Source: Paracoccaceae bacterium (lineage in GTDB: Bacteria > Pseudomonadota > Alphaproteobacteria > Rhodobacterales > Rhodobacteraceae). Taken from it: DNA of 63,746 nt. The position numbers were made by a program, and so were the translations under genes. This document shows, piece after piece, positions 11,211 through 46,696 of this stretch (positions are counted from its first letter, which is position 1; every line of letters begins with the position of its first letter). The stretch spans positions 1 to 63,746 of the forward strand of contig JAAEUI010000611.1 in NCBI GenBank assembly GCA_024227475.1. Direction: 5' to 3'. The notes under the pieces are model-generated. The model did not search any database, was not told the DNA's origin, and saw only the letters and a program-made list of their open reading frames with translations.

Positions 11211-11253
11211 AACGTTTCAGGTTTGGCCGGAATCGCCAATCCAGAACGCCGCT

Positions 11254-11538
11254 CTAAGCCCCTTCAACGATCACCAGATCCCGGTTGGAATTGTTCAGCG
11301 CGATGGGCAGGATTTCCCGATACTCCGGTGAATTGTAAAACCGCCTTGCCGCATCCGAATCTGGAAACTCGATCACCACATGACGGTCGGGACCGGACCC
11401 TTCGATCTGCTCATAGGCCCCTGCTTTCACAAGAAATCTACCGCCAAATTTCTCAGCAAGAGCGACGGTTTGCCCGGCATATTCTTTGTAAGCCTCAAGG
11501 TTCGTCACTTCAATACGAGCAATAATATAAGCTACCAT
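11254..11538 (-). CDS. DUF1330 protein, second of a tandem pair
   Basis: A 94-residue protein of the DUF1330 family (dimeric alpha/beta ferredoxin-like barrel), with VIEFPDSDAARRFYNSPEYREILP matching the family core. Its function is unknown. It starts one base into the stop codon of the preceding DUF1330 gene, and both are exactly 94 residues with the same motif order, so they arose by tandem duplication and then diverged. Its TAG stop lies inside a TTAGAGC repeat end (11251-11257). Confidence 0.88.
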   Translation of the reverse strand: MVAYIIARIEVTNLEAYKEYAGQTVALAEKFGGRFLVKAGAYEQIEGSGPDRHVVIEFPDSDAARRFYNSPEYREILPIALNNSNRDLVIVEGA

Positions 11539-11822
11539 CAGACACCCTCAACAAACAGGTAATCACGCTTAGCAGCAGGCAACCCGTAGGATAGCGCTTC
11601 CTGGTATTCCGGGCTGTTGTAGAAAGTCTTGGCCGTTTCCATATCACGCCATTTGATGATTACATTGCGCGAACGCGATGCCCCTTCCATCACGGCCGTC
11701 TCGCCGCCGCGTGCCAGAAACTCACCGCCATATTTGGCAACCGCCGGTCCGGCAAGTTCCGCATATTTCGCGTAATTTTCTGCGTCCTGCACATCAATGT
11801 GTGCCATCGTGTAAACCGCCAT
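11538..11822 (-). CDS. DUF1330 protein, first of a tandem pair
   Basis: A 94-residue DUF1330 member, clearly related to its downstream neighbour: NVIIKWRDMETAKTFYNSPEY aligns with the other's VIEFPDSDAARRFYNSPEY. The ATG follows directly after the alaS TAA stop with no gap, so expression with alaS is likely. The biochemical role of this family is not established; a small dimeric binding protein or monooxygenase-like fold is the usual structural description. Confidence 0.88.
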   Translation of the reverse strand: MAVYTMAHIDVQDAENYAKYAELAGPAVAKYGGEFLARGGETAVMEGASRSRNVIIKWRDMETAKTFYNSPEYQEALSYGLPAAKRDYLFVEGV

Positions 11823-14477
11823 TTATCCCTCCAACAGTTTTCGGGCCGCCTCAAGCGCCCCTTTTGCATTTTCCGCACTTGGCCCGCCAGCCTGCGCCAT
11901 GTCCGCACGGCCACCGCCGCCTTTACCACCAAGTGCCTCTGCTGCAGCGCGCACCAGATCAACCGCGGAAACTTCTCCGGTCAGATCGTCTGTAACGCCC
12001 GCAGCCACCGCGGCCTTACCCCCGGCATCGGAAATCAGCACAATAACGCCTGATCCCAGCCGGGATTTTTGTTCGTCAATCAGCCCGCGCAGGTCCCTGG
12101 CAGGTACATCTTTCAGAATCTGGCCATGAAATGTGGTGCCGTTGACCATTTCAGCACCCGAACCTGCGCCCGATCCACCACCAAGGGCCGCCTGCCGGCG
12201 CAACTCCACGATTTCCGCGTGCAGCGCTTTTCGTTCATCCAGCAGTGCGCGAACCCGATCCGGCACATCCTCGGGCCGTGCTTTCATCGCGCCTGCAGCC
12301 TCTGCTAACCGGCTTTGCTGAACCGCCAGATGGTCAAAAGCCGCCTGCCCGGTCAGCGCCTCGATGCGACGCACCCCCGAAGACGACGCGTTTTCGCCAA
12401 GCAGCGCAAACATGCCGATGTCCCCGGTGCGCCGAACGTGGGTTCCGCCACAAAGTTCCAGCGAATAGGTCTGGCCATCGCCACCCTTGCCGCTGCCCTG
12501 TTGCATTCCCATCGAAACCACCCGTACCTCGTCGCCGTATTTCTCACCGAACAACGCCTGCGCTCCCATATCCCGCGCCTCATCCGGCGTCATGATCCGG
12601 GTTTCCACCGGCGAATTCTGGCGGATATAGCCGTTCACCTCGGTTTCCACCTGGCCAAGCTCATGCGCTGACATCGCCTTAGAGTGCGAGAAATCGAACC
12701 GCAGCCGGTCATCAGCATTCAACGAACCGCGCTGCGCCACGTGCTCGCCAAGATGCTGGCGAAGGGCCTCGTGCAGCAGATGGGTTGCCGAGTGGTTTGC
12801 CCGGATATCCGTGCGGCGGGAGTGGCCCACCGCAAGTTCCGCTGCGGAGCCCTCTGCGACTGTGCCACTTATCACCTCGCCGAAATGCACAAAGACTCCG
12901 GCCTTTTTCTTTACATCCGTGATGTCGACAGTGCCGCCGTCTGTTTTGAGTGCACCACTGTCACCAACCTGGCCGCCTGATTCCGCGTAAAACGGAGTTT
13001 GGTTCAGCACAATCTGAACCGCATCGCCCTTGCCAACGGCTTCAACTGTTTCACCGCCGGAAACCAGTGCCAGAATTTGCCCCTCCGCAACTTCCGTGTC
13101 GTACCCCAGAAACTCAGTCGATCCGTGCTGTTCTGCCAAATCAAACCAGACCGTTTCATCTGCGGCTTCGCCCGAACCCGCCCAGGCTGCCCGCGCCTTG
13201 GCTTTTTGCGCATCCATCGCAGCGTCAAATCCGTCGGTATCAACCTCCACGCCCTTCTCGCGCAGCGCATCCTGAGTCAGATCAAGCGGAAATCCGTAAG
13301 TGTCGTATAGTTTGAACGCTGTTTCACCGGGCAGGTTTGCTCCGTCACCAAGCTGCGCCAGTTCCTCGTCCAGCAGCCCAAGACCCCTATCCAGCGTGGT
13401 TTTGAAACGGGTTTCCTCAAGCAGCAATGTCTCTTGGATCATCGCCTGTGCCCGGCCCAGTTCCGGATAGGCCTGGCCCATCTGGCGCACCAGTTCTGGT
13501 ACCAGCCGGTGCATCAGCGGATCTTTCGCCCCCAACAGATGCGCATGGCGCATAGCCCGGCGCATGATCCGGCGCAGAACATACCCGCGCCCCTCGTTTG
13601 AGGGCAGCACGCCATCGGCAATCAGGAAGGAAGTAGAGCGCAGATGATCAGCAATCACACGGTGATGCACATTTTGGTCGCCATAGGGTTCAACACCGGT
13701 GCCGTGGGCCGACGCCTCAATCAGCGCCTTGAACAGATCAGTATCATAGTTGTCGTAGCTGCCCTGCATCAGTGCCGCGATGCGCTCAAGCCCCATACCG
13801 GTGTCGATCGATTGCATATCGAGCGCCACCATAGAGCCATCCTCGAACTGCTCATTCTGCATGAAAACGATGTTCCAGATTTCGATGAACCGGTCGCCAT
13901 CCTCTTCTGGTGTGCCGGGCGGACCACCCGGGATGTGGTCACCGTGATCGTAAAAGATCTCGGTGCACGGACCGCAGGGGCCAGTTGGACCCATCTGCCA
14001 GAAGTTGTCATGCGTGGCGATGCGGATGATACGGTCTTCGGGCACTCCAACCTTTTTCCAGATTTCAAAGGCTTCATCATCGGTGTGATAAACGGTGGCC
14101 AGCAGCCGCGATTTATCGACGCCGAATTCCTTGGTGATCAGGTCCCAGGCAAAAGGAATGGCCTCTTCCTTGAAATAATCCCCAAACGAGAAATTTCCCA
14201 GCATTTCAAAGAACGTATGGTGGCGTGCTGTGTATCCGACATTGTCCAGATCATTGTGTTTACCACCGGCGCGCACACATTTCTGCGCGGTCGTTGCACG
14301 TTTGTAATCGCGGGTCTCCTGCCCCAGAAATAGATTCTTGAACTGCACCATACCCGAATTCACGAACATCAGCGTCGGGTCATTGCGCGGCACCAAAGGT
14401 GAGCTGTCGACTACCGCGTGGCCGTTCTGGGCAAAAAAATCCAGAAAAGTGGTCCGAATGTCGTTGAGGCTGATCAT
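11823..14477 (-). CDS. alaS: Alanine--tRNA ligase
   Basis: An 884-residue class II synthetase that charges tRNA-Ala and edits Ser/Gly mischarging. Seen in order: the N-terminal aminoacylation domain with [20 protein letters not shown], the tRNA-recognition region, the editing domain with [12 protein letters not shown] and later [14 protein letters not shown] (zinc-binding Cys/His), a coiled-coil stretch, and a Gly-rich C-terminal DHHA1 domain (ADMAQAGG). Length is normal. Two DUF1330 genes follow without a gap. It lies downstream of recA with a recA terminator in between. Confidence 0.98.
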
Positions 14478-14557
14478 CTGCGTCGGTCCTGGGGCTTGGT
14501 CTTACGGGCTGAAAACGGGTTTACCGCCCAGTTTTCAGACTGTCCACAGGACAATTG

Positions 14558-14584
14558 AAAACGCCGGGCCAATCCCCGGCGTTT
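14558..14584 (-). terminator. Rho-independent terminator after recA
   Basis: A perfect 10-bp inverted repeat, AAACGCCGGG and CCCGGCGTTT, with a six-base loop. On the minus strand it is followed by TTTTC. It sits 87 bases after the recA stop and 81 bases before the alaS start, so it separates the two transcripts. The T-run is short, so efficiency is uncertain. Confidence 0.7.
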
Positions 14585-14670
14585 GCATATTGTCAAATCG
14601 TTTTCGCTTCAATGCTCCCCAAATACCCAGGTCAGGAACAAAAACACAAAGACGCTACAGGATACCGGGG

Positions 14671-15747
14671 TCAGGCCTCCAGCACCTCATCCCCTTCATC
14701 TGCCGGTGGTGGTGGCGCATCGAAATCGAGCCCGTGGGCGGCGCGGATTTTGTCCTCGATCTCATAAGCAATCGCCGGATTATCTTTCAGGAAGGTCTTG
14801 GCATTCTCCCGCCCCTGCCCGATCCGCTGATCGCCATAGGAAAACCAGGAGCCGGATTTTTCAACAATTCCGGCCTTGACGCCGAGATCTATCAACTCAC
14901 CGCGCTTGGAAATACCTTCGCCATACATGATGTCGAACTCCACTTGTTTGAACGGCGGGGCCACCTTGTTTTTGACCACTTTGACCCGCGTGGCGTTGCC
15001 CACAATCTCATCCCGATCCTTGATCGATCCGATCCGGCGGATATCAAGCCGCACCGAGGCGTAGAATTTCAGCGCATTACCACCCGATGTCGTTTCTGGT
15101 GAGCCAAACATCACGCCGATTTTCATCCGGATCTGGTTGATGAAAATCACCGTGCAGCCGGATTTTGAGATCGAACCCGTCAGTTTTCGCATGGCTTGTG
15201 ACATCAACCGTGCCTGTGCACCAACCTGATGATCACCCATATCACCCTCAAGCTCCGCCCGGGGCGTCAGCGCGGCCACAGAATCCACCACGACCATGGA
15301 CACAGCGCCAGAACGCACCAGCGTATCGGTTATTTCCAGCGCCTGTTCACCGGCATCGGGCTGGGAAATCAGCAACTCGTCCAGATTAACGCCAAGCTTT
15401 TTGGCATAGGTCGGGTCAAGTGCATGTTCCGCGTCCACAAATGCGCAAACCCCGCCCTTTTTTTGTTCCTCTGCAATGGCATGCAGGGCCAGTGTGGTTT
15501 TGCCTGAGCTTTCCGGCCCGTAAATCTCAACAATCCGGCCCTTGGGTAAACCTCCTATACCAAGGGCAATATCAAGACCGATCGACCCGGTTGAGGTCGA
15601 ATCAATATCCATAACGGCATTGTCCTGCCCCAGCTTCATGATCGAGCCTTTGCCAAACTGCCGTTCGATCTGACCCAAAGCCGATTCCAGTGCCTTTTGT
15701 TTGTCCATTGCGCGTCTTTCGTCCAGATTAAGCAAGCTTGTCGCCAT
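14671..15747 (-). CDS. recA: Recombinase RecA
   Basis: A 358-residue RecA: ATP-dependent strand exchange, LexA co-protease and SOS activator. The Walker A motif GPESSGKTT, the VVDSVAAL Walker B strand and the IFINQIR segment of loop L2 are all present. The C-terminus is acidic (DEGDEVLEA). The start [12 protein letters not shown] is chosen since AAGGAC precedes it and the family begins here; an upstream in-frame ATG would add 29 residues of unlike sequence. An SOS box lies about 80 bases upstream, and a terminator follows. Confidence 0.98.
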
Positions 15748-15828
15748 TGTTTTAGTCCTTATTTCATATCGCACGCGTCGCGGCAATCTCTGCTGATGTT
15801 CGCCTCTTGTTCTCATTTCACTGTATGA

Positions 15829-15843
15829 GATCAAAAAGAGAAC
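15829..15843 (-). promoter_or_regulatory. LexA (SOS) box upstream of recA
   Basis: On the minus strand the sequence is GTTC, seven bases, GATC, located 82 bases before the recA start. Alphaproteobacterial LexA recognises a direct repeat GTTC-N7-GTTC; the second half here differs at one base. A GTTC-N7-GATC variant is, as far as I recall, known from Rhodobacter SOS genes. Position upstream of recA supports the call. Confidence 0.78.
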
Positions 15844-15942
15844 ATTTCAAGTAAAATTTTCAATTCCACAATTTCGCATGAAGGTTTATGATTGGTAAAA
15901 GAGTCACTTAAAAAGTGAACTATCTGAGGTGTGCGTGCGGGT

Positions 15943-16539
15943 ATGTTGATTTTTCTCAAGCAGAAGTTGGTGTTTTTTGCGACGCCTAAAACTGCCTCAA
16001 CATCCATTGAAATGGCTCTTGGCATGCGTTGCGATATCCGTATTTCAAAATCACCAAACGCAAAGCACACACCTTACCGCAAGTATCAACGCCTGCTTGA
16101 ACCTTTTGTCATGACCCTGACCGGCGATGCACCTGAAACCGTTGCGGCAATGCGAGAACCGGTTAGCTGGCTTGGAAGCTGGTACCGCTACCGCAGCAGG
16201 GACGAGATAAAGGGCACAGAAAAAGGCACAGCCGGCCTCAGTTTTAATCAATTTGTCGAAGCCTACCTATCTGACGATCAGCCGGAATTTGCCCGCGTCG
16301 GTTCGCAAGCCCGCTTTCTCTGCAACAGGGAGGGGGATTTGGGGATCAGTCATTTATTCCGATATGAAGAAATTGACACGTTGGTTGGATTCTTACAGCG
16401 CAGGCTCGGCTTACAGTTTAAAATTGGCCAAATGAACACCTCCCCGCTTGCAGATATCCAGCTCAGCCCAGAACTTCGGCGCGAGCTTGGTGATGCTTAT
16501 CGGCAGGATTTTGAACTTTACAAGAGCTTGTCACCGTAA
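15943..16539 (+). CDS. Small sulfotransferase-like protein
   Basis: A protein of about 198 residues with an N-terminal VFFATPKTASTSIE segment that matches the 5'-phosphosulfate (PAPS) binding loop of sulfotransferases (PKTxSTS variant). AMREPVSWLGSWYRYR resembles the 3'-phosphate-binding RDP/S region, and LSFNQFVEAYL and the RYEEIDTLVGFL stretch are common in bacterial glycan-type sulfotransferases. A GTG four codons upstream is an alternative start, but it lies directly on the GAGGT. Divergent from recA. The acceptor is unknown; surface polysaccharide or a small molecule are possible. Confidence 0.75.
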   Translation: MLIFLKQKLVFFATPKTASTSIEMALGMRCDIRISKSPNAKHTPYRKYQRLLEPFVMTLTGDAPETVAAMREPVSWLGSWYRYRSRDEIKGTEKGTAGLSFNQFVEAYLSDDQPEFARVGSQARFLCNREGDLGISHLFRYEEIDTLVGFLQRRLGLQFKIGQMNTSPLADIQLSPELRRELGDAYRQDFELYKSLSP

Positions 16540-16630
16540 AGCGTTCTACATTTACCTGAGGCAAACTAATATGAAAACCGCCGGCCTATGTAACTGATAA
16601 CGTGGAAGTTTCGAGTTTGCATCGGCGTAC

Positions 16631-16691
16631 CTAGAGCGTTTCACGATTTATTGGAATCGCCAATGAATCGTGAAAAGCAGAATTGCTCTAA
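16631..16691. repeat. TTAGAGC-family short hairpin repeat
   Basis: A 61-bp element that begins CTAGAGCG and ends GCTCTAA, enclosing a 16-bp stem (TTTCACGATTTATTGG with its partner, one wobble) and a five-base loop. The same hairpin recurs at 46650-46690 in inverse orientation. The stop codon TAG of cckA lies inside its right end. Confidence 0.85.
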
Positions 16692-18487
16692 CTGGACGAC
16701 AGGTCGCGAACCTTATCGATCAGCTGCAGCAGCGAAAATGGCTTAGGCAGAAACGCAGCATTGGCGATATCCGCGTGATCCTTTGCGACCTTTTCTTCAG
16801 CGTATCCTGAGACAAAAATTACTTTGGTTTCCGGCCGGTCTTCTAATGCCATCCGCACCCAGGTTGGCCCATCCATCCCCGGCATGACCACATCTGAAAC
16901 GATGATATCAACATGCACGGTCTTATCAATCAGCTTATTGAGCGCGAGTTCTGCTGAAGCGGCCTCAAGCACTTCAATTCCGTGGAGCTTCATCGCCCGA
17001 GACGCAAAAGCCCGCACCGGCGTCTCATCCTCGACCAGCATGACCGTCAACCCGTCCAACCGCTTCGAACGCGACGCCTCAACTTTAACGATTTCTTTAC
17101 GGGGCTGTGCATTGGCAGATTGCGCTGGCAACAGAATTGTAAAAGATGATCCCTTTTCGAATTCGCTGCTTGCAAAGATGAACCCGCCGGTTTGCTTGAT
17201 GATGCCATAAGCCATCGACAACCCCAGCCCAGTACCCTCGCCAACTGGCTTTGAGGTGAAAAAAGGTTCAAATATTTTGGACAAACGGTCCTGGCGAATA
17301 CCGCATCCGTTATCCGTCACTTTGATACAGACGTACTCACCAACGGGAACGGTAGCCTTGTCAAAAACCGTATCTTCCTTGCAGTCATACAGGCTGCTTA
17401 TTATCGTTACTTCGCCACCATCGGGCATCGCGTCACGCGCATTGACGACCAAATTCATGATCACCTGCTCCAGCTGCCGACCATCCACAAACACACACGG
17501 CAGGTGCTTTCCAAATTCAGTTTGCAACCGCACTTTCTCGCCCAGCAGGCGGTTCAGCAGATGCGTCAGATCCGACAGTGTGTCATTAACCTTCCGAATG
17601 CTTGGGCGCAGGTTTTGTTTGCGTGAAAAAGCCAGCAGTTGCCCAACCAGAGCCGCTGCCCTGTTGGCATTCTGGCTGATCTGGACCAGATCGCCATAGT
17701 CAGGATCGCCCTGGTCATGACGCAAAAGTAACAAGTCGCAATACCCTGAAATTGCAGTTAAAAGATTGTTGAAATCATGGGCAACGCCGCCTGCCAACTG
17801 TCCGATCGCCTGCATTTTCTGGCTTTGGACGAACTGAGCCTCAAGAGATTTCAGCTCTGTTGCATCACTCAAGGTTGCAATCAAGGTACCAGGCGGTCCA
17901 ACCGGCGAATCCATCAGTGAAACCTGTAAAACAAAATCCCGGGTGCCGCGTTTTGCCTGAACCATCTCAGGCTTGGGTTTGTTCGGCTTAGCCCGCGCCG
18001 CTGAAAGCCAAGTATCAACGGTCTGCCCTAAACCCTCAACAAGATCTTCAAATCGGGGAGATTCACCGGCGTTTATTCCCAAAAAGCCGCGGGCCGGGCT
18101 GTTTGCCTGATCAACAAGGCCGGAAGTGTTTATCCGAACCAATGCGATGGGAAGATTGTCGAATTGCTTCTTAATCGAGGCTGCCACACGGTCTTCCGTA
18201 AGTTCCGAGATTGTCGGGATAGGTGTTTTCACCGACGTGTTGCCTATCACCCCGGTATCAGTTTCACTTTGATTCCGGCCCATTCCTTCTCTGACGACCA
18301 AAGGCTCGGCAAAACAGGCTGTGACGACAAAGCCTGCCAGAAGCGCACAGCAGCCAGCCAACAAATACCAGCCAGACAGCCGCGACAACAGGCCGAGAGC
18401 AACAACCAGAAAACCTGCAAAGGCAGCCGGAAAAAACAAATCAGATAGTTTTGTGTTCCCCATTTCGCCCCAAGGTAATTCTGTCAT
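16688..18487 (-). CDS. cckA: CckA-type hybrid histidine kinase
   Basis: A 599-residue membrane-bound sensor kinase. Two hydrophobic segments lie at residues ~17-60, then a PAS-like domain (~105-210), a HisKA dimerisation domain with phospho-acceptor H237 (GGVAHDFNNLLT), an HATPase domain with N349, DNGCGI and GTGLGLSMAYGI, and a receiver domain with phospho-acceptor D532 (VSDVVMPGMDG). GQLAGGVAHDFNNLL plus a receiver is the CckA signature; CckA feeds phosphate through ChpT to the master regulator CtrA. It seems shorter than Caulobacter CckA, with a reduced sensory region. The stop codon is part of a TTAGAGC repeat, and another repeat end abuts the start. Confidence 0.88.
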   Translation of the reverse strand: MTELPWGEMGNTKLSDLFFPAAFAGFLVVALGLLSRLSGWYLLAGCCALLAGFVVTACFAEPLVVREGMGRNQSETDTGVIGNTSVKTPIPTISELTEDRVAASIKKQFDNLPIALVRINTSGLVDQANSPARGFLGINAGESPRFEDLVEGLGQTVDTWLSAARAKPNKPKPEMVQAKRGTRDFVLQVSLMDSPVGPPGTLIATLSDATELKSLEAQFVQSQKMQAIGQLAGGVAHDFNNLLTAISGYCDLLLLRHDQGDPDYGDLVQISQNANRAAALVGQLLAFSRKQNLRPSIRKVNDTLSDLTHLLNRLLGEKVRLQTEFGKHLPCVFVDGRQLEQVIMNLVVNARDAMPDGGEVTIISSLYDCKEDTVFDKATVPVGEYVCIKVTDNGCGIRQDRLSKIFEPFFTSKPVGEGTGLGLSMAYGIIKQTGGFIFASSEFEKGSSFTILLPAQSANAQPRKEIVKVEASRSKRLDGLTVMLVEDETPVRAFASRAMKLHGIEVLEAASAELALNKLIDKTVHVDIIVSDVVMPGMDGPTWVRMALEDRPETKVIFVSGYAEEKVAKDHADIANAAFLPKPFSLLQLIDKVRDLSSS

Positions 18488-18737
18488 CTAGAGCATTTCT
18501 GGTTTTTGTTTGATTAACAAACTTAATCAGAAACGAAACTATATCAACGGTTTAAGACTACAATTCGCCTTCAAACTACTTTAGTTTTGCGGCACAACGC
18601 TCGCCGCAATTTCACGCATTCTTAATCAGGGAAATTGTGAAAAGGCTAACAGTCCAATAGCCAGCACTCGGCATTCTTTACTCAATTGGTTAAGAATACC
18701 CAAAAACACCATGCTTTTCAACTTAAGGTTGCTCTAA
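18488..18737. repeat. AT-rich degenerate TTAGAGC-bounded interval
   Basis: The whole cckA-rsmB intergenic region opens with TCTAGAGCATTTC next to the cckA start and closes with GCTCTAA containing the rsmB stop. These ends match the long copies' TTAGAGCATTTCC and GCTCTAA. The inside is AT-rich, with a GTTTG-ATTAA-CAAAC hairpin at the left, and aligns only poorly with the 117-bp form. It may be two decayed elements. It must also hold the cckA promoter. Confidence 0.55.
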
Positions 18738-19912: not shown

Positions 19913-19918
19913 ACCGGA

Positions 19919-21674
<1,756 letters not shown>

Positions 21675-22637: not shown

Positions 22638-22640
22638 ACC

Positions 22641-23552: not shown

Positions 23553-23683
23553 CAGGCACGCTGGCCCTAGTTGACCAATTGGGTGCTGAACGCGGGGGCG
23601 ATGAAGTGTTTGTCATAACCAAGCCCACCCAACGACTTTTAAAAACACACCCTATGGCATTGAATATGTAGCAAGATTATCAG

Positions 23684-24156: not shown

Positions 24157-24273
24157 TTAGAGCGTATCTCGTCTAATTGGATTCACAAAGGAATCGAGAT
24201 ACGCAACAACGTCAGATACTTAACCCGGCATTTCCAATTCAATCTGAAACCGATTAAATTGGAAATGCTCTAA
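24157..24273 (+). repeat. TTAGAGC repeat, long copy A (117 bp)
   Basis: Bounded by TTAGAGCG and GCTCTAA. Two hairpins: a left 10-bp stem GCGTATCTCG/CGAGATACGC and a right 12-bp stem GCATTTCCAATT/AATTGGAAATGC, joined by AACAACGTCAGATACTTAAC. Nearly identical copies are at 28657-28773 (inverted) and 46517-46633. It fills the convergent gap between the cupin gene and rlmE. Confidence 0.95.
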
Positions 24274-28656: not shown

Positions 28657-28773
28657 TTAGAGCGTTTCCAATTTAATCGGTTTCAGATTGAATTGGAAAC
28701 GCCGGGTTAAGTATCTGATGTTGTTGCATATCTCGATTCCCTTGTGAATCCAGTTAGACGAGATACGCTCTAA
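28657..28773 (-). repeat. TTAGAGC repeat, long copy B (117 bp, inverted)
   Basis: Reverse complement of copy A, same length, about 6% different. In the right stem the A-T pair next to the base is replaced by G-C on both arms (GCGTTTCCAATT/AATTGGAAACGC), a compensatory change. One arm of the left stem has a G-U variation. It lies directly after the methyltransferase stop. Confidence 0.95.
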
Positions 28774-33901: not shown

Positions 33902-33911
33902 AAGCCTAAGC

Positions 33912-33985
33912 GCGGGTATGGTGAAAAGGTATCACGCGAGCTTCCCAAGCTTAAGTTACGGGTTCAATTCCCGTTACCCGCTCCA
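33912..33985 (+). tRNA. tRNA-Gly (anticodon CCC)
   Basis: A 74-nt tRNA including an encoded CCA. Acceptor GCGGGTA pairs with TACCCGC; the anticodon loop is TTCCCAA (anticodon CCC) and the T loop GGTTCAATTCC is standard. The anticodon stem (CGAGC/GCTTA) has a wobble pair and a C-A mismatch at its base. A perfect-looking promoter lies directly upstream. The DUF2235 gene follows 68 bases downstream. Confidence 0.96.
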
Positions 33986-34052
33986 AACATTCTTGATAAT
34001 CACCAGCAAAAGCGTATCCTGAAGCGGTCAATTACGCAGTCGGACGTGCATT

Positions 34053-35234: not shown

Positions 35235-35240
35235 GCGTAG

Positions 35241-36848: not shown

Positions 36849-36858
36849 TCCGTTACTC

Positions 36859-37053
36859 CTAGTCCCTGCAATGGCCCCAAGCTGTCGCGTCCGCATCCAA
36901 CACGACACGCACCGGTTCGTTTCGCGAACCGTCTTTATCCACCGCTGCAAGACAGGTCGCAAGCTTTTCTTTCCCAGCGATCAGCTTGTGCGCCCCCCTG
37001 CCTGCTAATTGTCTGAGCGTCGCCAGCTGGTTACGCGGTTCTTTTATTAAGTT
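36859..37053 (-). pseudogene. pgl: Remnant of 6-phosphogluconolactonase (C-terminal end only)
   Basis: Between zwf and pgi there are only 287 bases. On the minus strand, a 64-codon open stretch without a start (upstream TGA at 37056) ends in a TAG. It encodes EPRNQLATLRQL...[11 protein letters not shown]...[15 protein letters not shown], which aligns with the C-terminal pattern of Pgl (EPR-L-L, H-I-x-G-x-K, PV-x-VL-x-A-x-x-W). Everything N-terminal, about 160 residues, is missing. zwf-pgl-pgi is the expected order, so pgl has been removed by deletion. An alternative is a chance match in intergenic DNA, but the strand, position, motif order and spacing agree. Confidence 0.65.
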
Positions 37054-37135
37054 TCAGCACGCATCACCGTTAGCCCCGTCGCGGCGTCGCAGGCCTTCTC
37101 AACAAACGACGCCCTGCAACTGTCAACCAGTCCAC

Positions 37136-38590: not shown

Positions 38591-38723
38591 TTCAAGCCGT
38601 CGATTTCCGCTTTATTGCCAATCCTCGAAATTCAGTCACATTCCCGTGGGAAATACAAGCTTGCCTTTGATTTGAAGGGGCTAACACTGTAGCGATAAAG
38701 ACGGGACACACGCAGGCAGACTG

Positions 38724-39686
38724 ATGAACAAGCACAATATTGCCCTAGGCAATCCCGCCGGACTCGGCAAATTCGAACACCCGGATATCACCGCAAAAGG
38801 CGACGAACGCGCTTCTGTTTGCATGAACGGCGCAAGCACGCTTTGGTTCAACACCGGAACATTATGCAACATCGAATGCGTGAATTGTTATATCAAGAGT
38901 TCGCCGAGCAATGACCGGCTGGTCTATATCACGGCTACCGAGATTGAACCTTACCTTGATCAGATCACCGAACGGGGCTGGCCGACCACGGAAATCGCCT
39001 TTACCGGTGGCGAGCCCTTCATGAACCCCGAAATGATCGACATGACGCGCTTGAGTCTGGAGCGCGGCTACAGCGTACTGATCCTGACCAATGCCATGCT
39101 GCCCATGATGCGAAAACGCGTTCGCGAGGGGCTTTTCGAATTAAACGCCCTATACCGCGACAAGCTAACTCTGCGGGTTTCGGTGGATCACTTTCAGCCC
39201 GCGTTCCACGATCAGGAACGCGGAGCCGGATCCTTCGCGGTGACACTTTTAGGAATGCAATGGCTGCGCGATAACGATTTCAAAATGGCGGTCGCCGGGC
39301 GCACACTCTGGGGCAACTCTGAAGCCGACAGTCGCGCCGGTTTCGCTGCCTTTTTTAGCGATCATGATTTTGACATCGACGCTCATGATCCAGCCGCCAC
39401 GGTTCTGTTTCCTGAAATGGATGAAACTGCTGAAGTTCCTGAAATAACAACCGCTTGCTGGGATATCTTAAACAAGTCTCCACAGGATGTAATGTGCGCG
39501 TCTTCACGCATGGTGGTTAAACGTCTTGGCGCTGACTGCCCCACCGTGCTGGCTTGCACCCTTCTGGCCTATGACTCCCAGTTTGAGCTGGGACGCACGT
39601 TGGCTGCGGCAGAGAAACCGGTCAAACTGAACCATCCTCATTGCGCAAAATTCTGCGTTCTTGGCGGCGCCAGTTGCACGGCGTAA
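38724..39686 (+). CDS. Radical SAM protein with Cys-rich C-terminus
   Basis: A 320-residue radical SAM enzyme. The [4Fe-4S] motif is C48-x3-C52-x2-C55 (CNIECVNCY) and the GGE motif appears in AFTGGEPFMNP. The C-terminus contains additional Cys (CASSRMVVKRLGADCPTVLAC and HPHCAKFCVLGGASC), which may hold one or two auxiliary clusters as in SPASM/twitch proteins. The substrate is unknown; the family is common in alphaproteobacteria as an uncharacterised single-gene locus. It overlaps the following transporter gene. Confidence 0.88.
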   Translation: MNKHNIALGNPAGLGKFEHPDITAKGDERASVCMNGASTLWFNTGTLCNIECVNCYIKSSPSNDRLVYITATEIEPYLDQITERGWPTTEIAFTGGEPFMNPEMIDMTRLSLERGYSVLILTNAMLPMMRKRVREGLFELNALYRDKLTLRVSVDHFQPAFHDQERGAGSFAVTLLGMQWLRDNDFKMAVAGRTLWGNSEADSRAGFAAFFSDHDFDIDAHDPAATVLFPEMDETAEVPEITTACWDILNKSPQDVMCASSRMVVKRLGADCPTVLACTLLAYDSQFELGRTLAAAEKPVKLNHPHCAKFCVLGGASCTA

Positions 39687-40564
39687 ACCGACCGGCACTG
39701 GCCTGGGTCGCACTTGCTCTGACGATTCTGATCTGGTCTGGCTACATGGTAATTGCCCGGGCTATGGTGATCACGGCGCTCGGTCCGGTCGAGGTTGGCC
39801 TCTTGCGGTTTGTCCCGGCGACCTTGCTGTTCGCTCCGGTCCTGATCCGCAATGGCCCAATCCCACGAGGGTCAAGCCCGAGTGACGTTGCCCTTATCGC
39901 CATACCAGGTGGCTTTCTGTTTATCATCTGTCTTGCCGGAGGCATGAAATACGCGCCCGTCGCTGACGCTGTTATTTTTGCCCCCTCGATGCTGCCATTT
40001 TATGTAGCCTGCCTCGCATTCTTCTTTCTCGGTGAGACGCTTTCTGGCAAACGAATAATTGGCCTGGCTCTGATAATTGGGGGTGCCGCAGCCGTTGGGT
40101 GATCGGAGGTGCTGGCCAATGCAACCAGCGGTGCCTGGCGAGGGCATATCCTGTTCACCATGGCGTCAATGTTCTGGGCTATCTACACAGTGCGTTACCG
40201 GTTTTCGGCAATTGGCCCGGTCAACGCCGCCGCGATGATCTGTTTCTGGAGCACGCTGGCGTTGCTGTTGACGTCCCTGTTCACCGGACTCGATTTTTCC
40301 CGCCTGAGCACACAAGAACTGCTGATCCAGGTTGTTCTTCAGGGCGTCCTGACCGGGTTTTTATCCACCTTAACATACGTTTACGCAATTAGAGAACTCG
40401 GCGCGACGCGACCGGCCACTTGGGCAGCTCTGGTCCCAGTTCTCGCAATCCTCGGCGGTTGGGTGTACCTGGGTGAAACCCTGACAGCCTTTAAGTGGCT
40501 TGCCGTCGCAGTTGTGTCTATCGGAGTTGCCCTTGCATCCGGTCTGCGACTTCGCACGCTTTAG
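39674..40564 (+). pseudogene. EamA/DMT transporter interrupted by an in-frame TGA
   Basis: Two halves of a DMT-family transporter (about 10 helices, two EamA repeats) in the same reading frame. The first ends at a TGA (40100-40102) after GLALIIGGAAAVG, and the sequence continues SEVLANATSGAWRGHILF in frame, with the second EamA repeat running to 40564. A single base change (for example TGG or CGA to TGA) explains the break; no frame shift is needed. The 5' start is unclear: TTG at 39674 or 39641, both overlapping the radical SAM gene. The product may be lost, split into two chains, or made by readthrough. Confidence 0.8.
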
Positions 40565-40578
40565 CTTCCTTCAAGGCT

Positions 40579-41691
40579 CTAGCGTCCTGCAAGACCGTCG
40601 CTCAGAACCCCTCGCACGACATCCAGATCGACATCGCGGGTCACAAATGCTTCGCCAAGATCCCGCGCCATGATGAAGGCAATCACCCCGTCGCTCACCT
40701 TTTTGTCCTGTCCCATCAGGGCGATCAGGCCATCAGCATCCGGTAAATCGCCCGGAACATCCGACAGATCACATTTCATGCCCATCGCCTTGAAATGCGC
40801 CCGCACCCTGCTGGGGGCCTCCTGCGAACACAGCCCCAGCCGCTGCGATGTCTCAAACGCCAGCGCGGTGCCAATCGAAACGCCCTCGCCATGCAGCAAC
40901 CGGTCGGAATACCCTGTCGCCGCCTCCAGGGCATGACCAAACGTATGCCCGAGGTTTAACAGGGCCCGGTCGCCCCGCTCATGTTCATCCCGCGCCACAA
41001 TTGCGGCCTTCATTTCGCAGGAACGGCGCACCAAACAGATGCGCTTTTCAACATCCCCTAAAGCCGCATCCGCCGCGTTTTCTTCCAGCCATTCGAAAAA
41101 CGCCGCATCCCCCAACAATCCATATTTGGCGACTTCCGCATAACCGGCCAGAAAATCGCGCCGGGTCAGCGTTCCCAGCACCGAAATATCAGCCAACACC
41201 AACTGCGGCTGATGGAACGCGCCCACCAAATTCTTGCCGTGCGGAGAATTGATCCCGGTTTTGCCGCCAACCGAACTGTCGACCTGGGCCAGCAGCGTCG
41301 TTGGCACTTGTACAAACCGAATTCCACGGCGCAAAATCGCCGCTGCAAACCCTGCCAGATCACCAATCACCCCACCGCCAAAAGCAATCAGGACATCGTC
41401 ACGCTCAATTTTCTCTGACAGCAGCCACTCAACTGATCGCTGAATGTTTTCCCATGATTTGGTCGCTTCTCCGGCGGGCAGAGCGAGGGAGACACTTTCG
41501 ATATCTGCGGCCGTCAATCCCGCCCGTAACGCATCCAGATGCTGCGCCGCCACAGTTTCATCGGTGATAACTGCAACCTTGCGCCGTCTGAGAATAGGTA
41601 AAACAAGTTCACCGGCCTGCGCCAGCAAATCAGGTGCGATCTCTATCCGGTATGACCGCTCTCCGAGATCAACCGATACATGCTGCCTCAT
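40579..41691 (-). CDS. aroB: 3-dehydroquinate synthase
   Basis: A 370-residue NAD- and metal-dependent enzyme of the shikimate pathway that makes 3-dehydroquinate from DAHP. Motifs seen are FGGGVIGDLAGFAAAILRRGI, PTTLLAQVDSSVGGKTGIN, and NLGHTFGHALEAATGYSDRLLHGEGV (metal-binding His). It overlaps the aroK stop by four bases, so aroK-aroB form an operon. Its TAG stop is followed by AGC, matching the end of a repeat element. Confidence 0.96.
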   Translation of the reverse strand: MRQHVSVDLGERSYRIEIAPDLLAQAGELVLPILRRRKVAVITDETVAAQHLDALRAGLTAADIESVSLALPAGEATKSWENIQRSVEWLLSEKIERDDVLIAFGGGVIGDLAGFAAAILRRGIRFVQVPTTLLAQVDSSVGGKTGINSPHGKNLVGAFHQPQLVLADISVLGTLTRRDFLAGYAEVAKYGLLGDAAFFEWLEENAADAALGDVEKRICLVRRSCEMKAAIVARDEHERGDRALLNLGHTFGHALEAATGYSDRLLHGEGVSIGTALAFETSQRLGLCSQEAPSRVRAHFKAMGMKCDLSDVPGDLPDADGLIALMGQDKKVSDGVIAFIMARDLGEAFVTRDVDLDVVRGVLSDGLAGR

Positions 41692-42299
41692 CGCTCGTCC
41701 TCTTTCTTAACGCCGCTTTGTGGTTCATTCAGCAAGGCAGAAACGACCTTTCCGGCCATGCGATCCAACGACAATCCAGGTTCCGCATCCACCGCTATCT
41801 TGGCCTTGGCATAGACCGGGTTGCGCGCGTGATACAAGTCCGCAAGTGTCTGATAGGGATTCTCGGTGCGCAGCAAGGGCCGCGTATCCTTGTGCTTAAC
41901 CCGGTTCCATAACAGGTCCAGATCAGCCCTGAGCCACAGGGCCACGCCGTATTTGCTGATCAGTTTGCGGTTTTCATCCGACATATAGGCTCCGCCACCG
42001 GTCGACAAAATACAGGGATCACCCTGCAACAGCCGCTCCAGAACCTGTGTTTCCTTGCTGCGAAAAAACGCTTCTCCGTCACGCTCGAAAATCTCGGCAA
42101 CCGACATATTCGCCGCTTTCACGATTTCCTGGTCGGAATCAAGAAACGGCACGCCAAGTTTTTGCGCAACCAGCGTGCCAACAGCGGTTTTCCCGGCCCC
42201 CATAAGCCCAACAACCACAATGGTTTTGTTCAGTTGGTACGTCACCTGGCCCACTTTCAATCGGCAGCATCGCATTGCGGCATTCCGCCGAACACCCAC
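41688..42299 (-). CDS. aroK: Shikimate kinase
   Basis: A 203-residue kinase with the P-loop GLMGAGKTAVG, DSDQEI substrate motif, and STGGGAYM plus R-x-x-x-Y region for the lid. It phosphorylates shikimate at O3. The first ~15 residues (MGVRRNAAMRCCRL) are unlike the family, and a later start near KVGQVTYQLNKTIVVVG is equally possible; the coordinates take the longest plausible form. It overlaps aroB by four bases. Confidence 0.94.
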   Translation of the reverse strand: MGVRRNAAMRCCRLKVGQVTYQLNKTIVVVGLMGAGKTAVGTLVAQKLGVPFLDSDQEIVKAANMSVAEIFERDGEAFFRSKETQVLERLLQGDPCILSTGGGAYMSDENRKLISKYGVALWLRADLDLLWNRVKHKDTRPLLRTENPYQTLADLYHARNPVYAKAKIAVDAEPGLSLDRMAGKVVSALLNEPQSGVKKEDER

Positions 42300-42394
42300 A
42301 ACATAGGATTACCATTTTTTGAAATGGGTGATATCATTGATCAATCACAAGGCAAGCCCTGAGAAGCAAATAACAGAGCAGTTGGACCGCTGAT

Positions 42395-42529
42395 ATGGGT
42401 AAACTCATAAAATACTTGTTTTTTCTGCTGATATTCAGTTCCGCTGGCTTGCTGGGTTATTCTTATCTGGGAGACATTTCAGCCCCCCAGACGGAAGTGA
42501 CAATCACGGTCGAACCTCATGTTTCGTAA
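42395..42529 (+). CDS. Small single-pass membrane protein
   Basis: A 44-residue open frame. It begins MGKLIKYLFFLLIFSSAGLLGYSYL, one clear transmembrane segment with a short basic N-terminus, then a polar periplasmic tail DISAPQTEVTITVEPH. The last 11 bases overlap the start of the following exported protein, which indicates coupling. It is divergent from aroK. The function is unknown; the size and position recall small, conserved Rhodobacterales proteins. Confidence 0.72.
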   Translation: MGKLIKYLFFLLIFSSAGLLGYSYLGDISAPQTEVTITVEPHVS

Positions 42530-44060
42530 CGCGGCCCCGGTAATTCTGGTGCTTGGCCTGCTTGCAGGCGCAACGTCTGGTGACGAACTGGCATCACCCA
42601 GTCAATGGCTCTCAGACTCGATCGCACCGGGCAGCGTCATTCAATCAGGAAAAAACCCGAGGCTCTCCAAAACCCGTGGGCTGGCAACGGAAATAATTTC
42701 GATCACCCCACTTGATGATGTCAAACTGGATGCAGTTGGGGTCCTACCCGCTGTCGTTGCCGGCCTTCCGGCGCAATTCTGGGGCGACAGCCCGTCCTCA
42801 ACACTCAGCCGTTTGTTGCGACAGCACAATGATTTGGCGCTACCCGAAATCGTCAACCTGACCCACCGTGTTCTTCTGGCCGAACTTGATGTGCCCATCG
42901 GCCACAGCCAGGATGGTGACATGCTGTTGGCCCGGCTGGATCACTTGTTGGCCGCCGGAGCATTGGATCAGGCTGAAGCCTTGCTCAAGCGTTCCGGCAC
43001 TCCCAACGCAGATCTGTTTCGCCGCTGGTTTGACGTCGGATTGCTAACTGAGCGCGCGCAGCAGGCCTGTGCCACCATGCTTGGCGATCCCGGTTTGACG
43101 CCAGCCTTGCAGGCCCGCATTTTCTGCCTTGCCAGATCCGGTGATTGGGGGGCTGCTGCACTCACCCTGACAACAGCAACGACGTTAGATCAAATCAACC
43201 AGGAAGATAGCGCACTTCTGAGCAGGTTTCTGGATCCCGAACTGTTTGACGGGGAGCCCGACTTGCCAGCACCAACACACCTGACGCCGCTGGTTTTCGC
43301 CATGCGAGAGGCCCTGGCAATGCCACGCAGTGGAAAATCCCTGCCGCTGGCGTTTTTACACGGCGATCTGCGGGGATTCTCTGGGTGGCGCGACCGTCTG
43401 AGCGCTTCCGAAAGGCTGGTTCGCGCACAGGCGGTTCCGGCGTTTGTTTTGCTGGACGTGTACACCGAAGCCAAACCCTCCGCCTCAGGTGGGATTTGGG
43501 ATCGGGTTCAATCCATTCAAACACTCATTTCAGCCCTGGAAGCAGGAGACAACCCCGCGATTTCAAAGGCAATGGTTGCGGCCTATGCCGAAATGGCCAA
43601 GGTAAACCTTGAATTTGCTCTCGCGGACCTCCTTTTGCCACAGATCGAGGTTGTTCCTCTGACCGAGGAAGCAACGACTGTGCGGTTCCATCTGTCCCTG
43701 TTACACAAAAATGCCGCCGAACTCGCCCCTCGTTTTGCAGGCGAGTCTCAGCAAGACAGGTTTCTGGTCGCTGTTATTCGCGGTGACTTGGCAAACATAG
43801 TTGCAGAAAATGATCTCCAGTCCGCCATCCGTGATGCGTTTCTTGGAACACCGGTTGATACTCAGTTGCTGCGCGATGCCAAACGCGGCAGATCCGGCGA
43901 AGCCATATTGAAATCCTTCGCCCAACTCTATGCCTCTGGCAGTTCGGACCCAGTCGCCGTTGAAACCGTACTATCTGTTCTGTTACAGGCTGGACTGATA
44001 AATGAAGCCCGGAGGATCGCGGTTGAACTGGTCGTTCTGGATCGCCGGGCTGCCATATGA
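42519..44060 (+). CDS. Conserved exported protein between aroK and xerD
   Basis: A 513-residue protein of no recognised domain. An N-terminal hydrophobic stretch (PVILVLGLLAGATSG) is a signal peptide or anchor. The rest is mainly alpha-helical with repeated leucine-rich helical pairs (LLAAGALDQAEALLKR, ARIFCLARSGDWGAAALTL), suggesting TPR- or Sel1-like helical repeats. The gene overlaps the small membrane protein at its start and xerD by four bases at its end, so it belongs to that operon. A role as a periplasmic scaffold is possible, but nothing visible proves it. Confidence 0.75.
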   Translation: MFRNAAPVILVLGLLAGATSGDELASPSQWLSDSIAPGSVIQSGKNPRLSKTRGLATEIISITPLDDVKLDAVGVLPAVVAGLPAQFWGDSPSSTLSRLLRQHNDLALPEIVNLTHRVLLAELDVPIGHSQDGDMLLARLDHLLAAGALDQAEALLKRSGTPNADLFRRWFDVGLLTERAQQACATMLGDPGLTPALQARIFCLARSGDWGAAALTLTTATTLDQINQEDSALLSRFLDPELFDGEPDLPAPTHLTPLVFAMREALAMPRSGKSLPLAFLHGDLRGFSGWRDRLSASERLVRAQAVPAFVLLDVYTEAKPSASGGIWDRVQSIQTLISALEAGDNPAISKAMVAAYAEMAKVNLEFALADLLLPQIEVVPLTEEATTVRFHLSLLHKNAAELAPRFAGESQQDRFLVAVIRGDLANIVAENDLQSAIRDAFLGTPVDTQLLRDAKRGRSGEAILKSFAQLYASGSSDPVAVETVLSVLLQAGLINEARRIAVELVVLDRRAAI

Positions 44061-44980
44061 CAGAGAATTGGATCGAGCCATTCCTGGAAGCGATGTTCGC
44101 CGAGCAGGACGCTTCTGAAAACACGTTAAAGTCTTACAGCGCAGATCTGGTGGCCTTCAAAGCGTACCTTGGAACGCTGAATATCCGGTTTTCCTCTGCC
44201 ACTCGCGCAGATGTTGAGTCGTTTCTTGTATCACTGGAGACCAAGGGCCTCGCTGAAAGCACAAGAGCGCGGCGCCTTTCGGCAATTCGCCAACTTTACC
44301 GTTTTGCATTTGAGGAAGGCTGGCGACAGGACAATCCGGCTGCGCAAATCCGTGGACCCAGAAAAAAGCGCCATTTGCCCAAAACCCTATCCGAGGACGA
44401 GGTTGACCGGCTTCTGGTCGCCGCCACACAAACCGGGCGCACAGAACACGACAGGCTGCGCAATTCCTGTCTGATGCAGGTTCTTTATGCAACCGGTATG
44501 CGGGTCAGCGAACTGGTGTCCTTGCCGACAGCCGCTGTTCGCGGCAATCCCGATATGCTTTTGATCCGGGGCAAGGGTGATAAAGAGCGCATGGTTCCCC
44601 TGTCCCCACCTGCCAAAATGGCAATCGCGGCCTGGCTTCGGGCCTGGGACGCAGAACAGGAACTCGCCCGGAAAAATGGAAAAGAGCCGTCCCGCTTCCT
44701 GTTTCCGTCCGGCAGTAAATTGGGGCATCTGACCCGCATTCGGTTTTACACACTGGTCAAGGAAATCGCAGTCATAGCCGCAGTCAGCCCGGATACTGTA
44801 ACACCCCACACCCTGCGTCACGCCTTTGCAACCCATTTGCTTGCCGGGGGCGCTGACCTGCGTGTCATCCAGATGCTGCTGGGCCACGCTGATGTCGCGA
44901 CGACCGAGATTTACACTCACGTTCTGGACGAACGGCTTAAGGAATTGGTAATGACCCATCATCCGCTGGCAGAAAAGTGA
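44057..44980 (+). CDS. xerD: Site-specific tyrosine recombinase XerD
   Basis: A 307-residue tyrosine recombinase. The N-terminal core-binding SAM-like domain (residues 1-90) has SENTLKSYSADLVAF; the catalytic domain contains an Arg in ATGMRVSELVSL, a Lys in RGKGDKERMVPL, HTLRHAFATHLLAGGADLRVIQMLLGH (His/Arg/His) and YTHV (nucleophile Tyr). With XerC it resolves chromosome dimers at dif. No dif site is visible next to it. Confidence 0.95.
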   Translation: MTENWIEPFLEAMFAEQDASENTLKSYSADLVAFKAYLGTLNIRFSSATRADVESFLVSLETKGLAESTRARRLSAIRQLYRFAFEEGWRQDNPAAQIRGPRKKRHLPKTLSEDEVDRLLVAATQTGRTEHDRLRNSCLMQVLYATGMRVSELVSLPTAAVRGNPDMLLIRGKGDKERMVPLSPPAKMAIAAWLRAWDAEQELARKNGKEPSRFLFPSGSKLGHLTRIRFYTLVKEIAVIAAVSPDTVTPHTLRHAFATHLLAGGADLRVIQMLLGHADVATTEIYTHVLDERLKELVMTHHPLAEK

Positions 44981-45153
44981 ATTTGCCGAGGGATTGATTT
45001 CGCACAAGACGCCGAACTAGTCTGTTGTTAACAAACTAAAAATACTCCGCTTTCGGAACCCTTCATCTACTGAGAAATTCCACAGCACCCTTGCGACCAC
45101 CGCCTAAATTCAGCATAACTGTCTCTTGAAGTTTTGACGCAAGGAAAGCACAA

Positions 45154-46470
45154 ATGGAAAGCGCCGCTGGCGGAGTCCTCAGTTTTGATCTGGATTTCTG
45201 GCTTACGACCATCGCAATCATCATCCTGTTGTTTATCTCGGGATTCTTCTCCGGCTCGGAAACGGCCCTGACCGCCGCCAGCCGCGGAAAGCTGCATTCG
45301 CTGGCGGACAAAGGATCGATGGCTGCAAAACGGGCCCTTCGGCTGACTGAAGACAGCGAACGGATGATTGGGGCTTTGCTGCTTGGCAACAACCTCGTCA
45401 ATATCCTGGCCGCATCGCTTGCCACCAGCCTGATGCTGCGCCTGTTTGGTGAAAATGGTGTGGCGCTTGCTACGCTTCTGATGACCTTTCTGGTTCTGGT
45501 CTTTGCCGAGGTCCTGCCGAAAACCTATGCAATCCTGCGATCTGAACAGGCTGCCCAGCTTGTGGCTCTGCCGGTTACAATCGCAGTTTGGGCGCTGTCT
45601 CCATTTGTTGGCGCGGTACAACTGATTGTCCGCGGTATTCTGTTCCTTGTCGGCGTTCGCAGCACAACAGAAGATGGTGCTTTTGCTGCTCAGGCAGAAA
45701 TTGCAGGTGCCATTGCCCTTGGCCACGTCGAAGGCAATTTCGAAAAAGACCACCGGGACCGCCTGCTCGGCGCACTTGATCTCAAAGACCGCGAGGTCGA
45801 AGAAATCATGCTGCATCGCTCCGACATCGAAATGATCGACGCAGATGAAAGGCCCGAAGACATCATCACCCGCTGCCTGGCTTCGCCCTACACCCGGATG
45901 CCGGTCTATCAGAATGATCCGGAAAACATCGTCGGTGTGATTCACGCAAAAGACCTTTTGCGGTCCGTTGATAAACTGATCCGCTCCAGCAAAGACGGTA
46001 CCCGGAATCTAAGCAAGTTCAGGATTCTTGACGTTACCATGAAACCGTATTTCGTACCGGAAACCACAACGCTGGATGACCAGTTGCGCGAATTTCTGCG
46101 CCGCCGCACGCATTTTGCGCTGGTGGTCGATGAATATGGCGATTTGCAGGGATTGATCACACTTGAAGACATTATCGAGGAAATCATCGGCGAAATCGCG
46201 GATGAACATGACGTGGAAGAAGACAGTGAAATGACGATGGACGCTTTTGGCAACTACGTCATTGACGGCGGCATGACCATCCGGGACCTCAACCGCGCAC
46301 TGGACTGGTCACTTCCGGACGACGAAGCCAACACAGTTGCAGGTCTGGTCATCCACGAGGCGCAGATGATTCCGGTGCCCGGTCAGGTGTTCAGCTTTCA
46401 CGGCTTCCGGTTTGAAATAACGGAGCGAGACCAGAACAAGGTCAAGTTCCTTAAAATTCGTCCGATTTAG
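45154..46470 (+). CDS. HlyC/CorC family transporter
   Basis: A 438-residue membrane protein with an N-terminal DUF21 (CNNM) transmembrane domain (ILLFISGFFSGSETALTAAS), two CBS domains (residues ~205-335) and a C-terminal CorC/HlyC domain (DEYGDLQGLITLEDIIEEIIGEI). Homologues act in Mg2+/Co2+ efflux. RBS AAGGAAAG precedes the start. Its TAG stop is created by a TTAGAGC repeat end (46467). Confidence 0.93.
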   Translation: MESAAGGVLSFDLDFWLTTIAIIILLFISGFFSGSETALTAASRGKLHSLADKGSMAAKRALRLTEDSERMIGALLLGNNLVNILAASLATSLMLRLFGENGVALATLLMTFLVLVFAEVLPKTYAILRSEQAAQLVALPVTIAVWALSPFVGAVQLIVRGILFLVGVRSTTEDGAFAAQAEIAGAIALGHVEGNFEKDHRDRLLGALDLKDREVEEIMLHRSDIEMIDADERPEDIITRCLASPYTRMPVYQNDPENIVGVIHAKDLLRSVDKLIRSSKDGTRNLSKFRILDVTMKPYFVPETTTLDDQLREFLRRRTHFALVVDEYGDLQGLITLEDIIEEIIGEIADEHDVEEDSEMTMDAFGNYVIDGGMTIRDLNRALDWSLPDDEANTVAGLVIHEAQMIPVPGQVFSFHGFRFEITERDQNKVKFLKIRPI

Positions 46471-46516
46471 AGCGTTTCACGTTTAATCTGATCCAGAATG
46501 AACTTGAAGCGCCGGT
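46467..46516. repeat. TTAGAGC-family fragment, left of copy C
   Basis: Starts TTAGAGCGTTTCACG and stops at the beginning of copy C. It shares the first 15 bases with the 61-bp hairpin repeat at 16631 and then TTTAATCTGATCCAGAATG, resembling the long copies' TTTAATCGGTTTCAGATTG. It contains the stop codon of the CorC gene. Confidence 0.7.
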
Positions 46517-46633
46517 CTAGAGCGTATCTCGTCTAATTGGATTAACATAGGAATCGAGATACGCAACAACGTCAGATACTTAACCCGGCATTTCCAATTC
46601 AATCTGAAACCGATCAAATTGGAAATGCTCTAA
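46517..46633 (+). repeat. TTAGAGC repeat, long copy C (117 bp)
   Basis: Same orientation and length as copy A, with only a few substitutions (ATTAACATAGG for ATTCACAAAGG and one base in the right loop). Both hairpins are intact. It is sandwiched by two shorter relatives. Confidence 0.95.
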
Positions 46634-46696
46634 GCATCTGGTGTCACTGCTTTTCACGATTCATTGGTGATTCCAATAAATCGCGAAAAGCTTTAG
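46634..46696 (-). repeat. TTAGAGC-family hairpin fragment, right of copy C
   Basis: A 41-base hairpin at 46650-46690 matching the 61-bp element at 16631 in reverse (CTTTTCGCGATTTATTGG on the minus strand). Its end, TTTAGCGCC on the plus strand, gives the herA stop codon TAA. Confidence 0.75.

Follow-up and report, generated by a model that had tools for sequence, protein, structure and literature searches.

Short TA-flanked repeats with IS630-like ends coincide with gene stop codons in a Paracoccaceae genome

When a repeated element ends exactly at the stop codon of a gene, it is natural to ask whether the element brings the stop with it, seeks it out, or comes to lie on it through its way of insertion. 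This question is raised by contig JAAEUI010000611.1 of the Paracoccaceae bacterium assembly GCA_024227475.1, a stretch of 63,746 nucleotides, hereafter the window, which is one contig of a 4.23-Mb genome in 657 contigs and 79% complete. The window contains 10 copies of the heptamer TTAGAGC where 3.4 ± 2.05 would be expected, and a count of 10 is reached in one of 100 shuffles. An earlier note on this DNA counted at least seven elements or fragments with TTAGAGC ends and proposed that they supply stop codons to the adjacent genes, either by insertion at gene ends with the element rebuilding the stop or by selection for landing precisely there.

The full repeat measures 115-117 bp and is built of an arm, a linker and a second arm, with sharp ends of the form TA-GAGC...GCTC-TA. 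The heptamer should properly be read as N-TA-GAGC, in which a C or T, being part of the target, precedes the TA. Several subfamilies have this architecture in common together with a similar linker, and one-arm derivatives of about 50-60 bp are also present in the genome, the examples in the window spanning 49 bp upward. The repeats are very probably MITEs with two arms and about 115 bp, plus their one-arm derivatives. The copies in the window and the stops lying in their ends are given in Table 1, and the gene families of these stop-site genes are backed by profile matches. The short element at 11208-11256 has no match to the arm model, which was trained on 12 arms, and is counted in by its repeat match to the element at 16632 (family D3) and its TA ends.

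Table 1. Repeat elements, and stop codons at their ends, by position in the window
Feature	Position	Strand	Remark
Full two-arm element	24158..24272	+	GANTC-bearing arm spans 24158-24204 and the second arm 24228-24272, joined by the linker; coordinates include the flanking TA; GANTC at 24180 and 24191
Full two-arm element, opposite orientation	28658..28772	-	repeat match and arm model; TA 10 bases beyond the stop of the upstream gene, counted from the first stop base
Older two-arm element	46468..46695	.	at the TA common to the convergent corC/herA stops; interrupted by the younger copy
Younger full element	46518..46632	+	in the older element's linker at CTAA; TA duplicated
One-arm element	16632..16690	+	right TA shared with the cckA stop
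Short diverged one-arm element	11208..11256	+	between convergent genes; both stops in the element ends
corC stop TAG	46468..46470	+	target TA plus first element base
herA stop TAA	46693..46695	-	target TA plus first element base
cckA stop TAG	16688..16690	-	in element end
DUF1330 gene stop TAG	11254..11256	-	in element end
SMR-family gene stop TAA	11208..11210	+	in element end

Two full elements, a nested pair and two one-arm elements are thereby retained as family members. The heptamers at rsmB (18734), at aroB (40579) and at 63400 were rejected as family members, since no arm was found there by the arm model up to E = 1, and are read as chance. Accordingly, the stops formerly placed in elements stand for the DUF1330 gene (11254), cckA (16688), the CorC gene (46470) and herA (46693), and are given up for rsmB and aroB.

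A whole-genome search for the repeat, of the kind the earlier note had proposed, yields many copies: a single copy used as the query gave 40 matches in its own genome, the best 30 of which were examined, some being partial. With the arm model at least 107 arm matches were obtained in this genome (best 150 of 1656 candidates scored). Among the other 32 genomes of the same genus, three (G010, G012 and G018) gave a single match each, whereas 29 gave no match, the best 150 candidates being scored per genome. At the level of the class, 9 of 385 genomes matched, own genome counted, under stricter filters with the best 16 candidates per genome, and one of 80 named Rhodobacteraceae cckA loci did so, with two overlapping hits. 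A 20-base core was not found in the genome-contig and viral-contig collections (near records possibly left out), two elements had no match among plasmids, and Rfam at gathering thresholds returned two tRNAs and nothing else.

The way of insertion can be read from the nested pair. When the inner copy is deleted and one TA is kept, the older element becomes 115 bp long and is identical to the copy L194 at 102 of 115 positions without a gap; this reconstruction implies that the TA was duplicated and that the original site was CTAA. The nested insertion and the element-free corC/herA relatives described below show that the TA is the duplicated target. Both ends are intact in 36 elements, and joining the flanks of these gives an empty site that reads YTAR in 35 (Y in 36 of 36, R in 35 of 36), against a background of 22.2% among the 1109 non-coding TA sites of the same loci. 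Of 118 ends, 107 start with a purine as the first base of the element (96 G and 11 A), and so do 27 of 28 ends of 14 named insertion sequences (IS). YTAR reads TAR, a stop codon, on both strands; because of this, and because the element starts with a purine, a stop hit by insertion is rebuilt as TAG or TAA.

Elements that could mobilize such repeats reside in the same genome, where searches with PF13358 and with transposases gave 13 IS630-family transposase matches, several of them at contig starts. In the other 32 same-genus genomes there was one good transposase match (G004), with weak ones in G011 and G014, and this co-occurrence of transposase and repeat speaks for a link between the two. 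The transposase of one resident element, ISd (L326), matches NF033545 and DDE_3 (PF13358) and hence belongs to the IS630 family. The ends of ISd and of two further resident elements, ISa (L341-L343) and ISb (L336-L340), start like the repeat arms. Comparing right ends only for the latter two, that of ISa, TAGAGCATTTCCGGTTTACTTTGGACCA, resembles arm L030, TAGAGCATTTCCGGTTTAAGTTGAACCA, and that of ISb, TAAAGCGTTTCCACATTACGTTGACACA, is similar to the L206 subfamily, TATAGCGTTTCCACATTAACTTGAGACA; in one copy of ISb the second base group is variant. The repeats share their ends with resident IS630-family elements, and on this likeness they would be moved in trans by an IS630 transposase. A preference of IS630 for CTAG targets is named in the title of an earlier study cited in PMC2170065. 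As for the family in general, the ISY100 transposase is described as inserting at TA and duplicating it in vitro (PMC2170065, in the portion cited).

How often the stops coincide with the elements was then counted over the genome, where 118 intact ends were available; 8 ends without a called neighbour were dropped, and the other 110 comprise 71 facing a gene 3' end and 39 facing a 5' end. With genes called by an in-house codon-usage script, the TA of the stop is the TA of the element in 24 of the 71 3'-facing ends, spread over 20 elements (21 TAG, 3 TAA), two of these 24 stops being weak (L223, a 96-bp ORF; L235, score 5.1) and the ends of the abutting elements L208, L210 and L213 counting as non-independent. 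Any other distance from stop to element is seen at most twice among the 71. The sampled element ends lie between genes or exactly at stops, apart from L231, where a called gene continues into the element and the end reaches 16 bases into it. The tally of copy-to-stop distances suggested earlier thus reveals a genome-wide bias to stops, and the claim of insertion at gene ends with the element rebuilding the stop is supported as well.

Whether the rebuilt stop is foreign to the gene was answered with relatives. The C-terminus of HerA lies within one residue of its relatives in all 24 loci with a readable end, and the length of CorC is identical in 19 of 22 relatives, the other three being 1-2 residues longer. 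The two genes are convergent in all 22 relatives in which they share a locus, and in 9 of these 22 their stops overlap on a single TA with the element absent; the joined site of the window reads ATTTAGCGCCCCTTGAAC and that of relative L172 reads ATTTAGCGCCCTTTAAAC. At another locus, L010, the left protein was compared with 27 relatives, of which 16 equal it in length and 11 are two residues shorter; the joined site there also forms overlapping convergent stops, the right-hand gene adjoining in just one relative. For the two proteins at 11208-11256, of the SMR family and DUF1330, the profile match extends through the C-terminal end. The last residues of CckA are variable, and agreement is to within about ten residues. 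CckA has 80 named relatives in the sample kept, with 52-60% identity and almost throughout with the label Rhodobacteraceae or Rhodobacterales. A search with the gene at L021 returned distant paralogues only, the best at 34%, and is uninformative on its C-terminus.

Where compared, then, the element takes over the stop without altering the protein. The earlier suggestion that the repeat supplies foreign stops does not survive this comparison: the ends of HerA and CorC are native, and at the empty orthologous sites, which the earlier note had wished to see compared, the two stops already lie on one TA in 9 of 22 relatives. Repeat-free orthologues with the same C-termini speak against a supply of stop codons, and leave intact the observation that the element lands at them.

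An alternative to a plain target rule is that the element actively seeks gene ends or stops beyond its DNA target, for example through coupling to translation or to transcription termination. Four of the 36 elements, without a gene on one side, were dropped for the interval test, which gives 32 insertions. Stops are 12 of the 88 available non-coding YTAR sites in the window and 51 of 418 in a larger sample drawn partly from element-bearing loci, and 12 of the 32 insertions are in excess of both (p = 6e-4 and p = 2e-4, respectively). Likewise, convergent intervals received 14 of the 32 insertions against 26-28% of the sites (p = 0.02-0.04). Such figures would favour active seeking; however, inside the very intervals that were hit, a random choice among YTAR sites would place 11.1 of the 32 insertions at stops, and 12 are observed (p = 0.38), and on this comparison we rejected stop-seeking beyond YTAR. 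The excess resides in the choice of interval, not in the site within the interval, and selection against hits near promoters would be enough to explain it. The same excess between convergent genes is also published for BOX, RUP, SPRITE and IS elements of pneumococcus (PMC3049150, in the passages cited). We therefore regard active seeking as improbable, and no such seeking is required for the landing at stops.

Another alternative, that the repeats are regulatory or terminator hairpins of the host, similar to REP sequences and kept at gene ends for their function rather than being mobile DNA, finds some favour in their folding, which gives strong hairpins on 4 of 4 strands (one element on both strands and two others on one strand; z from -5.75 to -6.85), as well as in the excess between convergent genes and in compensatory changes of the arm stem, although the latter could equally result from inverted-repeat ends by themselves. 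This is opposed by the TA duplication, the nested insertion, the YTAR target and the IS630-like ends, and by the search of the same genus, in which 29 of 32 genomes have no match and three have one each (best 150 candidates per genome), so that a host function of this kind seems very improbable. That the coincidences of TTAGAGC with stops are due to chance or to a common heptamer holds, on our reading, for rsmB, aroB and 63400, where no arm was found; for the listed elements it is refuted, as these heptamers terminate elements of 49-117 bp that are present in many copies genome-wide, with YTAR at 35 of 36 sites, and as a general account it has almost nothing left to recommend it.

A further link between the repeats and the IS630 family is the site GANTC. 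In alphaproteobacteria GANTC is the methylation site of CcrM, and its methylation is tied to the cell cycle. The window contains 124 GANTC against 246 ± 13.5 expected, i.e. half the expected number, of which 10 fall within elements (566 bp together) and 114 within the remaining 63,180 bp. The arm loop contains GANTC in 47 of 50 full elements, in one arm in 43 and in both in 4, with 3 having none. It lies at exactly 23-27 from the TA in 57 of 118 arms (the middle base being T in 28, A in 24, C in 4 and G in 1), and 24 of these arms have a second GANTC at position 34. Palindromes with GANTC in the loop are also seen in other members of the class (G070, G127, G231 and G408).

The ends of IS630 elements were collected from 18 named alphaproteobacterial plasmid loci and the own L326, 19 in total, and paired blind to GANTC. 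A left-right pair was accepted in 15 of 19; L345, L349, L352 and L356, with scores of 14-16, were dropped, the lowest accepted being L347 with 17.5. These 15 resolved elements are 1045-1057 bp long, and their empty sites read YTAR in 15 of 15. GANTC occupies positions 23-27 of the left end in 15 of 15, ISRm2011-2 (L360) of Sinorhizobium meliloti among them, with a second GANTC at 30-36 in 12 of 15, and the right end has it at 23-27 in 0 of 15; two elements have GANTC at position 3 of both ends. Since both lie at 23-27, the GANTC of the repeats corresponds to the site of the IS630 left end. With GANTC masked, log-odds scores could not assign the arms to the left or right end of the IS, "left" being scored for 14 of the 57 arms with GANTC and for 16 of the 61 without it, so that the test for a resemblance of GANTC arms to IS left ends outside GANTC was negative. 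Five non-alphaproteobacterial IS630 loci serve as a weak control, their ends being mostly unpaired (best 21 of 28 paired, L368); the pairs shown have no GANTC at 23. No obvious CcrM was found in the 79%-complete genome, where PF01555 matches only a 591-aa ORF. What is new here is the GANTC fixed at 23-27 of the IS630 left end and in the same place of the repeat arms; in the cited portions of the open-licence literature (including PMC10969869, PMC3049150, PMC2170065 and PMC11578231), neither GANTC in IS630 ends nor stop rebuilding through YTAR is reported.

Taken together, the repeats are very probably non-autonomous MITE relatives of the resident IS630-family (Tc1/mariner-type) IS, with a YTAR target, rebuilding of the stop and a filter of selection. 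The transposase would recognize ends starting with TA-RAGC, the ends actually observed, and a second conserved block at about positions 15-23. It would insert at the TA of YTAR and duplicate the TA, as the nested copy displays. An insertion in the stop of a gene would give TA plus G or TA plus A, which is again a stop and would leave the protein unchanged, and overlapping convergent stops would have both genes rebuilt at once, which is seen at corC/herA and has support at two further pairs, that of L010 and that at 11208-11256. Selection would remove most intragenic insertions and leave the intergenic ones and those at stops, especially between convergent genes. One arm retains GANTC at the position of the IS630 left end, plausibly because CcrM methylation would regulate mobility.

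A simple chemical reason is thus offered for harmless landing on stops: either strand of the target reads as a stop, which the element end then restores. Dam sites are known to tie the transposition and transposase expression of IS10 and IS50 to the passage of the replication fork. By analogy, and with the chances for and against about equal in our estimation, alphaproteobacterial IS630 elements may have a CcrM switch, in which the GANTC of the left end ties transposition or transposase expression to fork passage; repeats of the CIR type (Caulobacter CcrM-associated intergenic repeats) would be their MITEs, their long-noted GANTC would serve the control of transposition instead of host regulation, and YTAR together with purine-first ends would make the family harmless, with stops as safe harbours, most of all where convergent genes share one TA. 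The question of the methylation site is made testable, as the GANTC of the repeat sits where the parent IS630 has it, and if methylation does gate movement, an alphaproteobacterial counterpart of the Dam-controlled transposons would be at hand.

Among known systems, the CIR repeats, reportedly described by Chen and Shapiro in 2003, come close. By its architecture the repeat may be filed as CIR-like: both have about 110 bp, two long inverted-repeat arms with a linker, TA termini and, in one of the arms, a terminal loop with GANTC. CIR are described as intergenic, and the sampled ends of the repeat lie between genes or at stops apart from L231. In the cited account, CIR are absent inside genes, their mobility is unexplained and their target duplication is marked unknown (PMC2229807); in contrast, the repeat here has a TA duplication, a YTAR target, an IS630 partner and copies touching gene stops, so that a likely mobilizer, a target and a target duplication are now supplied for a repeat of the CIR type. 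RUP of Streptococcus pneumoniae, a 107-bp MITE, is similar in its TA target, in the likeness of its ends to a resident IS630 element and in its enrichment between convergent genes (PMC2229807, PMC3049150), and differs in that a second arm-and-linker design, GANTC and stop rebuilding are not mentioned for it in the passages cited. The earlier note knew of no described repeat with the stop-codon property; BOX of S. pneumoniae is already in print as encoding the stop of 36 genes, with no strong sign that these are truncated (PMC3049150). BOX thus shares with the present repeat the encoding of gene stops and the enrichment between convergent genes, whereas it is modular (boxA/boxC), has ISSpn2 as its proposed partner, and is given no target rule for its stop effect in the cited part of that work. 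The IS630 elements themselves duplicate TA (ISY100, PMC2170065, as cited) and have TAGAGC ends and YTAR sites (ISRm2011-2), and they differ as autonomous elements of 1045-1057 bp with a transposase from the repeats, which are 115 bp or less (115-117 bp in the full-element measurement) and code for none.

GANTC, the CcrM methylation site, is depleted two-fold over the whole window (124 sites against 246 +/- 13.5 expected) and is, in contrast, enriched within the repeat elements. A weak arm match beside cckA may perhaps be a decayed copy of such an element.

Weak match to the element arm
Feature	Position	Context	Support
Weak arm match	18489-18536	adjoins cckA start	E = 0.03, arm model

The only PF01555 match in the own genome is an ORF of 591 aa (L363, contig C216), in which the N6_N4 methyltransferase domain is split.

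GANTC also occurs in alphaproteobacterial IS630 elements, taken from named plasmids (L345-L362) and from the own genome (L326): all 15 resolved elements carry GANTC at position 23-27 of the left end, counted from the TA end, with a further GANTC at 30-36 in most, and none of their right ends has one at 23-27. Several own-genome contigs start within IS630 copies (L336-L342), and therefore the assembly is probably broken by IS630 and its copy number underestimated. Short palindromes with a GANTC loop and GCTCTA-like ends also occur in other alphaproteobacterial families, at L306 (genome G070), L308 (G231), L309 (G127) and L312 (G408).
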